From Bacteroidales bacterium (GTDB taxonomy: Bacteria > Bacteroidota > Bacteroidia > Bacteroidales > S143-33), in NCBI GenBank assembly GCA_015489395.1, contig WFZV01000046.1:1-35130 (forward strand): a stretch of DNA of 35,130 nt, read 5' to 3'. Under the pieces are notes generated by a model, which was given only the letters and a program-made list of their open reading frames with translations, did no database searches and was not told the DNA's origin. The position numbers were made by a program, and so were the translations under genes. Of this stretch, positions 30,236 to 33,261 are shown piece by piece (positions within the stretch are counted from its first letter, which is position 1; each line of letters starts with the position of its first letter).

Positions 30236-30278
30236 GGCTGGCGGTGGCCACTTGCAATTGCCACCGCCAGCCTTTTTT
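30236..30278 (+). terminator. Rho-independent terminator of the Tricorn-like gene
   Basis: GGCTGGCGGTGGC (30236-30248) pairs with GCCACCGCCAGCC (30260-30272) around an 11-base loop, followed by TTTTTT. It ends only 22 bases before the next gene's ATG at 30300. Confidence 0.88.
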
Positions 30279-30299: not shown

Positions 30300-31757
30300 A
30301 TGAACAGGAGTTTGCGCAAAATAATATCGATTATTCGTGATTTTGCAGAGCAGTGCGATCATATCGAAGGCTATTACGAAATGAGCAGCGTAGTGCGGGA
30401 TAGTGACTTTTATTATTCCGTTGGCGGTGCGATTGTTTTTCTTTACGATTGCCAGATGCTTTTTGCTGTAGCGCAACAAATGAAAAGCTATGTAAGCCGA
30501 CAGGTGGATTTGTCTGTGGCACAGGTTTTCGAAGGTCAAAAGCTTGTGTTTATCACCGGAGATTTAGTCAGGTTTAAAGTAGAATTTTCGAGCATAGGAC
30601 GCATAAATCATCATGTAAAGTTGCTCGTTGACAGCGGAGTACGTGATTACAAAGCGTCTTTGTTGATTGACAAAGATGGTCGTTTGAACCGTGAGTTTGA
30701 GCGTCTATGGCGTAAACCCAAAGACCAATTACAAGAAGTTTTCGAGGAATTGACAGCAGGTTTTAAGTATTGGAGTTACGAATTTCGTATGTTGTCAACG
30801 CGTTTAGACCATTTTCGTGCATACAAGGCTTATGTGGAGTTATATTACAAGTTCGTAGGGTTAAAGTTATTAGCTTCAGACAACTGGAAAAATTTGTTGA
30901 GTTTTAAGCAGGCTTTTTATCGAAAAATCAAGGACGACAATGAGTTTGAAAAGATAGTGGATTTAGCGCCGCAGCTGTTTATACAGTCGCTTATGCCATT
31001 GTATTACCGTATTATTGAGGACTTTTTGACGACTTATCAGAGGATTTGTGAACATTTTGGTTTTCAGTGTGATAATGGTTTAGTAAAATATTTTGAAGAT
31101 TTAGACCGTAAGTTTTACCCTGCATATAATTTTCGTGATTTTGCATTAGTTGTAAACCAGTGTATGGAGCGGCAGTATTTGAGACAGGGCAAGGTGTTTC
31201 GTTCAGGACAATTAGATATTTTCCCGTTGGATTATGTAAATTCGCTTTTTCACAGGTTTAACATAAAGACTGTTATTGATTTACGCAGGCATGAGGAACT
31301 GGATGAAGCAAGGGAGTATGATGTTGACGAGTATTTTCACGTTGTAATCGAGGAAGTTGGATATGATTATGACAGGGGGCAAGAGACGGAGGACAATTGG
31401 CCGTTTGATGTTTATTACGCTGGTATAGCGGAGCTTCAAGCAGAGAAATTAGCTCTGATTTATCGTAAAATAATTGAAGGTTTGAACAGGGGGGCTATTT
31501 TAGTACATTGCAATGCAGGAAAAGACCGTACTGGTGTTGTGATAGCTTTGTTGCAAAAGTTGCTTGGAGTTCCAGATAAGTGTATTATAGAAGATTACAT
31601 GGCAAGTTTTACTATTCATACGACCCGGGACATGAGTAAGTTTTTGCAGAAGTTACAAGCCCGCTATGGCGATGTTCGTAATTGGTTCATGGAAAAAGCT
31701 GGATTAACTGCAGCAGAGATTGAATATTTAAAAAGCGAGTTGTTGGCAGATGATTAG
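30300..31757 (+). CDS. Tyrosine-phosphatase-like protein (Y_phosphatase3) with an uncharacterised N-terminal half
   Basis: The protein is 485 residues from MNRSLRKIISI; the ORF track start at 30252 lies inside the terminator hairpin and is rejected. The C-terminal ~190 residues form a Y_phosphatase3-type phosphatase: GKVFRSGQL, IKTVIDLRRHEEL, then the P-loop HCNAGKDRTG with nucleophile Cys404 and Arg410. The N-terminal ~280 residues match no family I can name. An alpha/beta part (~1-140, with VRFKVEFSSIG and ASLLIDKDGRLN) leads into a helical part (~150-280, HFRAYKAYVELYYKFVGLKLL). This order weakly resembles a nucleotidyltransferase fold followed by its helical accessory domain, without an obvious active site. 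There is no signal peptide, so it is cytoplasmic. The coding strand is G/T-rich, unlike the protease gene before it. Confidence 0.85.
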   Translation: MNRSLRKIISIIRDFAEQCDHIEGYYEMSSVVRDSDFYYSVGGAIVFLYDCQMLFAVAQQMKSYVSRQVDLSVAQVFEGQKLVFITGDLVRFKVEFSSIGRINHHVKLLVDSGVRDYKASLLIDKDGRLNREFERLWRKPKDQLQEVFEELTAGFKYWSYEFRMLSTRLDHFRAYKAYVELYYKFVGLKLLASDNWKNLLSFKQAFYRKIKDDNEFEKIVDLAPQLFIQSLMPLYYRIIEDFLTTYQRICEHFGFQCDNGLVKYFEDLDRKFYPAYNFRDFALVVNQCMERQYLRQGKVFRSGQLDIFPLDYVNSLFHRFNIKTVIDLRRHEELDEAREYDVDEYFHVVIEEVGYDYDRGQETEDNWPFDVYYAGIAELQAEKLALIYRKIIEGLNRGAILVHCNAGKDRTGVVIALLQKLLGVPDKCIIEDYMASFTIHTTRDMSKFLQKLQARYGDVRNWFMEKAGLTAAEIEYLKSELLADD

Positions 31758-31799: not shown

Positions 31800-32405
31800 T
31801 TATTTATCTTTAGGCCGTTCTTTGAGTAGGCCATAGAAAAGCAGGTCAAGCAGGACGTTAAGTCTTTCTTTAAAAAGTGTATATTTGCTTTCGATGAAAA
31901 ATGGGATTTCCAGACCTTTAATAGCAGAAGCCAGGCCGTAAACTATCGGGTCTAATTCGTCGTAAGTAATTCTGAGTTCGTCGTTTTCAATACCGCGAAT
32001 AAGTATGTTTTTTAAAGCTAAAATTTCGAATTCATCAAAGCTTCGTCTGTATTTCTGGATCAGATTGTAAATATCCATTGTTTCGTGACGGACTAAGTTA
32101 TAGAGTTTAGCGATTTTGTTGGAATATTCCATACGTTTGATTATGTATCGTTTAAGCAGGGTTTTGGTATCTGCTTTGGATTTAATGACTTTCATCAATT
32201 CGTTTTGCAGTTCTTCGGCAATATCTTCAACGATCGCAGCGAAAATGTCTTCTTTGCTTTTAAAATAATAATAAAGTGTGCTTTTACTTTTGTTTAAAGC
32301 TTTGGCTATGTCCATCATTGTAGTTTTTGCATAGCCTTTACGCTGGAAAATGCGACGTGCAGTTTCCAGGACTTGTTTGCGAAAACGCTCGCTTCGTGGT
32401 CTCAT
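31800..32405 (-). CDS. TetR/AcrR-family transcriptional regulator (second)
   Basis: The protein is 201 residues from MRPRSERFRKQ at 32405, or 207 from the upstream ATG at 32423, which overlaps the preceding gene by 14 bases. The helix-turn-helix is plain: ARRIFQRKGYAKTTMMDIAKALNKSKS, then TLYYYFKSKEDIFAAIVED. The C-terminal helical domain has no recognised ligand. It lies directly downstream of the lipoprotein gene at 32410-33261 on the same strand, so both probably come from one transcript and the regulator may control that unit. It is not an obvious close copy of the TetR at 26270-26869. Confidence 0.92.
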   Translation of the reverse strand: MRPRSERFRKQVLETARRIFQRKGYAKTTMMDIAKALNKSKSTLYYYFKSKEDIFAAIVEDIAEELQNELMKVIKSKADTKTLLKRYIIKRMEYSNKIAKLYNLVRHETMDIYNLIQKYRRSFDEFEILALKNILIRGIENDELRITYDELDPIVYGLASAIKGLEIPFFIESKYTLFKERLNVLLDLLFYGLLKERPKDK

Positions 32406-32409
32406 AGTT

Positions 32410-33261
32410 TTATAGTTTCCCATTTAAAAGTTGATTACGGTAATTGTTTATAGATTTGATGATTTTCTTGTAAACAATTGGTTTTTTGTTGTTTAAAACG
32501 ATTTTGTATTCGCTATAAAGGTTGATGATATTTTGGATAAATTTAATAATTTTTTTCAAATCATCGTAATAATAATACGCGCTACTTTCCAACAGCGCAT
32601 CGTACAAGAATTTTTGTAAGTTTTTGAAGTTCTGTTCCTGGTTTAAAATGATTTTTTGTATCTGAGGATCGTTTTCATTGCACGATCTAATCAGAATGTG
32701 TAAAGATTCAAACCATCCGCCAACTACGATAAAAGGCAGAATGTTGTATTTATTATTGTCTTGCAGGAAGTTACAGGAACGGTTATAGGCTTCATTAGCC
32801 AGTTTTTTCAAACTGTCGATATTATCTTCGTTATTTTTAAACCGTTTATAAAGCTGGTCTGAATAGCCATTTTCTATGCCCAGCTCATTGGCTAAATTTT
32901 TCGAGACTTTAAAGTATTTTAAAGATAACTGGTTGTTGTTCAGAAAAGTACAATAAGCTAAGTCAGCATTATAAAAACCAAGGTAAATAGCTCTGGATTT
33001 ATCAGAAATAAGCTTTTGAGCTAACGAAACGTCTAATAAAATATCAGTCGAACAATTTCTGGTTTTTGTAATAAACCTGTATAAATCGAGGGGTAAAGGT
33101 AAATGATATTTATCGTAAACATGGTTTTGAACAGTAAAACTATCCCTTGTGTTTAATAAATTTTCTAATTCTTGCGGAGGTGTAACGTGATTTTTATTTT
33201 TGTTACACGACATCAAGGAAAATATGCTTAAAAATATGATGCCAACCCAGATTTTATTCAT
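32410..33261 (-). CDS. Uncharacterised Bacteroidota lipoprotein, paralogue of 16679-17644
   Basis: The protein is 283 residues with a good lipobox (IFSLMSC) after MNKIWVGIIFLS. The linker after the Cys is shorter than in the paralogue. The mostly helical body shares three ordered blocks with it: YHLPLPLDLY; LGFYNADLAYCTFLNNNQ with YFKVSKNLANELGI; and YNILPFIVVGGWFESLHILI. The C-terminal part is Tyr/Lys/Asn-rich. It is followed by, and may overlap, a TetR gene, and it diverges from the S9 peptidase gene with only 77 bases between. No function is known to me; the periplasmic face of the envelope is the likely site. Confidence 0.82.
   Translation of the reverse strand: MNKIWVGIIFLSIFSLMSCNKNKNHVTPPQELENLLNTRDSFTVQNHVYDKYHLPLPLDLYRFITKTRNCSTDILLDVSLAQKLISDKSRAIYLGFYNADLAYCTFLNNNQLSLKYFKVSKNLANELGIENGYSDQLYKRFKNNEDNIDSLKKLANEAYNRSCNFLQDNNKYNILPFIVVGGWFESLHILIRSCNENDPQIQKIILNQEQNFKNLQKFLYDALLESSAYYYYDDLKKIIKFIQNIINLYSEYKIVLNNKKPIVYKKIIKSINNYRNQLLNGKL

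Follow-up and report, generated by a model that had tools for sequence, protein, structure and literature searches.

The window, a 35,130-nt stretch from a Bacteroidales bacterium (contig WFZV01000046.1, assembly GCA_015489395.1), carries a gene in which a Y_phosphatase3 domain follows an N-terminal half that recalls nucleotidyltransferases (NTases). Translation confirmed the initially annotated reading frame at 30300-31757 on the forward strand. The features of the locus are:

30236-30278, forward: hairpin followed by a T-run (RNA fold -36.2 kcal/mol, z -5.4)
30300-31757, forward: phosphatase-fusion gene, 485 amino acids plus stop, ATG start (ORF and translation)
30309-30518, forward: putative degenerate NTase core, residues 4-73, spanning helix 1, strand 1, loop, strand 2 and the next helix (HHalign)
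30417-30428, forward: predicted dead metal site SVGG, residues 40-43, with LnuB Ser39-Asp40-Ile-Glu42 corresponding to Ser40-Val41-Gly42-Gly43
30660-30692, forward: LLIDKDGRLNR motif, residues 121-131, whose counterparts in the same register are LIDKDGHLTK / LIYDETGQLE in Lnu proteins and IIFDKSNSIL in intact fusions
30762-31109, forward: putative helical accessory domain, residues ~155-270 (co-linear HHalign over 221 columns, P 0.049 alone; MAFFT)
31110-31754, forward: Y_phosphatase3 / atypical lipid phosphatase (MptpB-like) domain, residues ~271-485 (Pfam, phmmer and tree; motifs NFRD, FRS, DLR and P-loop)
31506-31535, forward: P-loop HCNAGKDRTG, residues 403-412, with nucleophile C404, K408, D409 and R410
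31800-32423, reverse: TetR-family regulator, convergent with the fusion gene
32410-33261, reverse: lipoprotein-like protein of 283 amino acids, SCNKNKN

The mechanical ORF extends upstream to a TTG at 30252. We place the start at ATG 30300 because the stretch from the TTG is a strong hairpin and T-run, and same-genus homologues also begin MN..LR. This hairpin lies between the fusion gene and a preceding tricorn-like protease gene and is likely the intrinsic terminator of the latter, so that the phosphatase gene would not simply be read through from it. A promoter scan at the gene was uninformative. No signal peptide was apparent by eye, the N-terminus being helix 1 of the NTase, which points to a probably cytoplasmic protein, in contrast to lipoprotein-like relatives (L004 and L008).

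The genome holds one Y_phosphatase3 gene of this sort, and the gene, with its putative degenerate LinB-type NTase half and its Y_phosphatase3/ALP half, is real. The arrangement is not a chance observation, since two homologues from the same genus keep it: full-length P0003 (480 amino acids, 26-27% identity) and L023 (264 amino acids, cut by the contig end).

Pfam Y_phosphatase3 (PF13350) matched residues 275-438 (E 2.4e-36) at 126.3 bits versus a curated cut-off of 22.2, and phmmer matched the phosphatase half to M. tuberculosis PtpB (1YWF, E 3.6e-7). The initial annotation had noted a complete phosphatase loop, and we found it at residues 403-412, where it fits the consensus HCXXGKDR[TA]G of atypical lipid phosphatases; the loop Asp of these enzymes serves in catalysis and the Lys in substrate binding (PMC3091653). 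The active-site residues are complete, and the NFRD and DLR regions are likewise shared with MptpB and Y_phosphatase3 atypical lipid phosphatases. By analogy with MptpB, the C-terminal half would be a working phosphatase in which Cys404 attacks the phosphate and Asp409 is the likely general acid. The two-part layout first proposed holds, with different sizes: we put the phosphatase part at about 215 residues where ~190 had been given, and the N-terminal part at about 270 where ~280 had been given. The usual Y_phosphatase3 members in the order are shorter, many of 350-380 amino acids, and carry a different N-terminal domain (L004, L008 and L009) and no NTase half.

Intact fusions and their cassette

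Searching 99 related genomes for homologues revealed P0002 (L005), a 477-residue protein from another family of the order, whose best match was to the phosphatase. Its N-terminus, IETVLLIGSFGRRTPKPNSDIDYQIIV, is an intact nucleotidyltransferase signature, and Pfam Polbeta matched its N-terminal half (E 3.8e-7). A MAG labelled Melioribacter (L018) and Winogradskyella ludwigii HL116 (L020) carry further fusions, near-identical or 41% identical. Proteins that join GS...SDxD to the same phosphatase (L005/L019, L018 and L020) are rare and come from Bacteroidota/Ignavibacteriota. HHalign matched their N-terminal half to Lnu(B/F/G/H) with a P value of 3.8e-9 over 194 columns, and a PDB HMM match aligned residues 2-250 with the LinB structure 3JYY (E 0.0013); by these profile matches, this half is a LinB/Lnu-type nucleotidyltransferase. 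AlphaFold2 modelled an intact fusion poorly (pLDDT 48), and we give little weight to the top Foldseek hits of that model, LinB (E 4e-4) and a bacterial PTP. A weak PADLOC PDC-S09 match to the intact NTase core was taken as a generic NTase match.

The flanks of the carriers, whose survey was proposed at the outset, place the intact fusions within a cassette that includes a radical SAM gene. Its order is GT4 glycosyltransferase, radical SAM/SPASM protein, NTase-phosphatase, O-methyltransferase and WG-repeat protein, with the first two fused in L018 and L020 and the O-methyltransferase absent from L019:

L018:452-6571, L019:3728-10132, L020:5701-11081 and L003:3144-1 (minus strand): cassette, in distant Bacteroidota/Ignavibacteriota
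L003:1492-2109, minus strand: phosphatase alone, 205 amino acids, in the NTase-phosphatase slot, NTase half missing

The L003 phosphatase without an NTase half agrees with a view of the phosphatase as the core activity. The cassette resembles a mobile cluster for biosynthesis or modification, for which we found no name.

The intact fusions ('Draconibacterium' MAG L019, L018 and L020) resemble the window protein in length (474-478 amino acids), in the order of NTase core, helical domain and Y_phosphatase3, and in their related phosphatase. They differ in having all NTase catalytic residues and in lying in the cassette, whereas the window gene stands alone by a TetR regulator; radical SAM, O-methyltransferase and WG-repeat genes are absent beside it, its neighbours being the tricorn-like protease and TetR genes.

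A strict whole-fusion search of 396 genomes, none of them a known carrier, gave no match, and a phylum-wide scan with the fusion NTase half returned stand-alone NTases including Lnu(H), which we used as a yardstick. Lnu(H)-like lincosamide nucleotidyltransferases were seen in genomes sampled across the phylum (L025, L028, L029, L042, L044 and L046), L025 reaching 567 bits against the NCBIfam cut-off of 540. PHROGs and phage records held nothing for the window protein, viral contigs nothing for the fusion, and the genome contigs scanned with the window protein no relative. We found no description of an NTase-phosphatase fusion in open PMC papers, nor, in the literature searched, pseudoenzymes from drug-modifying NTases or links of such enzymes to Cys-phosphatases.

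The N-terminal half and its metal site

Residues 1-270 gave no direct match in Pfam, NCBIfam or PDB, in keeping with their first description as a half without a recognised family, and a search for another well-described family to which they might belong found none that claims them. Single-sequence AlphaFold2 of the window protein gave a pLDDT of 35, too low for fold assignment. We took a weak PADLOC PtuB1 match (E 0.001, residues 111-185) as chance.

We aligned the three genus members (window protein, P0003 and L023) over their N-terminal halves and compared the alignment with an NTase profile built from 30 diverse sequences that were gathered without reference to the window protein. HHalign scored 25.7 (P 0.0011) and placed residues 4-73 on columns 4-73 without a gap, with S30 at the GS position and S40-V41-G42-G43 at the S-D-x-D/E position of the core loop. 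By comparison, column and block shuffles averaged 11-12 (SD 2, maximum 19.3, n=1,200), the reversed profile scored 9.9, ten control families drawn from the same loci and comparable in depth scored 10-17 (maximum 16.8), and 203 unrelated single ORFs reached at most 20.8. Each of the three divergent sequences alone had its best alignment on the same diagonal; single sequences without a profile scored close to noise.

The NTase signal emerged only with the deep, diverse profile. Neither the three intact fusions by themselves (P 0.09-0.23) nor the Lnu family by itself (P about 0.05) gave a significant match. Against a LinB-plus-fusion profile the match was co-linear over 221 columns (7-242/5-237) with a P value of 0.049; 3 of 300 shuffles scored as high, none spanning more than 132 columns. 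Most of the statistical weight comes from residues 1-73, and the helical part is backed mainly by co-linearity. LinB/Lnu(B), Lnu(F), Lnu(G) and Lnu(H) (PDB 3JYY and 3JZ0) appear to match the N-terminal half of the window protein in their ~265-residue layout and in register, with S39, the arginine helix and a DKDG-like motif in common. They differ as stand-alone enzymes with D40/E42/E89, where the window protein has V41/G43 and an attached phosphatase.

In LinB, the ligands are Ser29, Ser39, Asp40, Glu42 and Glu89, plus two arginines of the second subunit, Arg165 and Arg170, that reach the ATP across the dimer (PMC4631478). Asp40 is replaced by Val in all three genus members (V41 invariant) and Glu42 by Gly in the window protein or Arg in P0003 and L023. 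Ser39 is kept as Ser40 of the window protein. At Ser29, the Ser of the GS motif, P0003 and L023 have Pro. The Arg165 position holds Arg or Leu (R168 in the window protein), and Arg170 is kept (R173, in the helical domain). The position of the catalytic base Glu89 is ambiguous: one alignment places it on K93 and another on E95, with Lys or Asp across the genus, and aligning the genus members pairs E95 with Asp. Instead of the catalytic GS...SD-x-[DE] with Glu89, the window protein reads SS...SV-G-G, and P0003 and L023 read SP...SV-S-R. The initial annotation was therefore right that the GS/DxD active site is absent, both metal-binding acids being replaced. The Val shared by all three proteins suggests that the metal site was lost before they diverged.

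Ancestry, selection and neighbourhood

Homologues of the window-type N-terminal half were found in one genus only. A tree built from 23 phosphatase domains separated two window-type and four cassette proteins from the 17 others by a branch with support of 92/94, below the starred threshold; a 13-row tree gave the split at 99/98. Judged by these trees, the phosphatase halves of window-type and cassette proteins are of common ancestry.

Between P0003 and a close homologue, dN/dS was 0.20 over the N-terminal half and 0.21 in the NT core alone, versus 0.02 for the adjoining mutS. These ratios argue for relaxed but clearly purifying selection and a maintained function, and so against a decaying pseudogene. 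Between the window genome and genome G001 the gene has diverged far more (22% identity in the N-terminal half, 33% in the phosphatase half) than its convergent TetR neighbour (67%).

In G001 and G003 the phosphatase gene lies 4 bp after mutS (L002:1495-2937 and L023:1501-2292). In G002, mutS and the TetR gene adjoin with no gene between them (L059:1890-1957), so the fusion gene is dispensable. The TetR gene is the same neighbour in other genomes, including G002 with no phosphatase gene. The lipoprotein-like gene lies by the TetR gene in the genomes checked; its product is 46% identical to that of G001 and had no Pfam match.

Proposed function and alternatives

The initial proposal of a degenerate nucleotidyltransferase with a helical accessory part fused to a phosphatase gains support from the intact fusions, the gap-free NTase register and the replaced metal ligands. 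We consider it probable that the gene encodes a cytoplasmic Y_phosphatase3/ALP phosphatase joined to a LinB/Lnu-type pseudo-NTase that lacks the metal acids and binds a substrate, ligand or partner. The NTase half would no longer transfer nucleotides and would still form a two-lobed, probably dimeric LinB-like body. By binding a nucleotide, another small molecule or a phosphorylated partner, its cleft would deliver substrate to the phosphatase or control it. Ligand binding and dimerisation of the pseudo-NTase, like the activity of the phosphatase half, are inferred. If this reading is correct, a bifunctional fusion with an intact NTase stands beside a phosphatase that lacks the NTase half (L003) and beside a form that has decayed yet been conserved, making the role of a dead NTase for a phosphatase directly testable. 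The case would also caution against reading drug resistance from a likeness to Lnu sequences.

The strongest competitor, which we nevertheless think unlikely, is that the N-terminal half is an unrelated, genus-specific alpha/beta and helical domain with a chance likeness to NTases, acquired independently of the intact fusions. Its confinement to one genus, the lack of a library or PDB family match, and the non-significant direct comparisons with the fusions and with Lnu alone would all fit such an origin. Against it, the gap-free NTase profile match exceeds all nulls and controls, the order, lengths and motif spacing are those of the intact fusions, and the phosphatase halves group together at the 92/94 branch described above.

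An N-terminal half that still transfers nucleotides via an altered metal site, making the protein a bifunctional NTase-phosphatase, seems very improbable. Purifying selection on the reading frame (dN/dS 0.2), the kept Ser40 and Arg173, and an acid (E95 or Asp) near the strand of the LinB catalytic base would favour retained activity; however, both metal ligands are replaced in three of three proteins, by Val and by Gly or Arg, and the GS-motif Ser is Pro in two of the three. Most remote of all is the reading of the half as merely an enlarged phosphatase lid, an outcome we checked and rejected: MptpB-type phosphatases do have helical lids, but this half is a separate 270-residue block ahead of NFRD, the first conserved phosphatase motif, rather than an insertion, and homologous fusions carry a recognisable NTase at the same place.

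Turning from these alternatives to how a pseudo-NTase might have arisen and act, we offer a speculative extension that is more doubtful than the pseudo-NTase reading itself. The ancestral NTase-phosphatase would belong to a previously undescribed family in Bacteroidota and serve the radical-SAM cassette as a two-step enzyme that dephosphorylates its substrate before a nucleotide is added; in the window genus, its NTase would have turned into a pseudoenzyme that senses a nucleotide or metabolite and switches the phosphatase. Regulation of a phosphatase in this way, by a dead LinB-type enzyme, would be new in kind. The mammalian mRNA capping enzyme, with its CX5R RNA triphosphatase and guanylyltransferase, also unites a Cys-phosphatase and an NTase in one chain; the likeness is one of analogy only, as domain order, NTase fold and substrate differ and the NTase halves have no homology.

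In P0003 (L002:1498-2937) the phosphatase DLR motif is gone and the region reads TIVSLIERN. The phosphatase of this homologue may be weakening too, and efficient phosphatase activity need not extend to every member.
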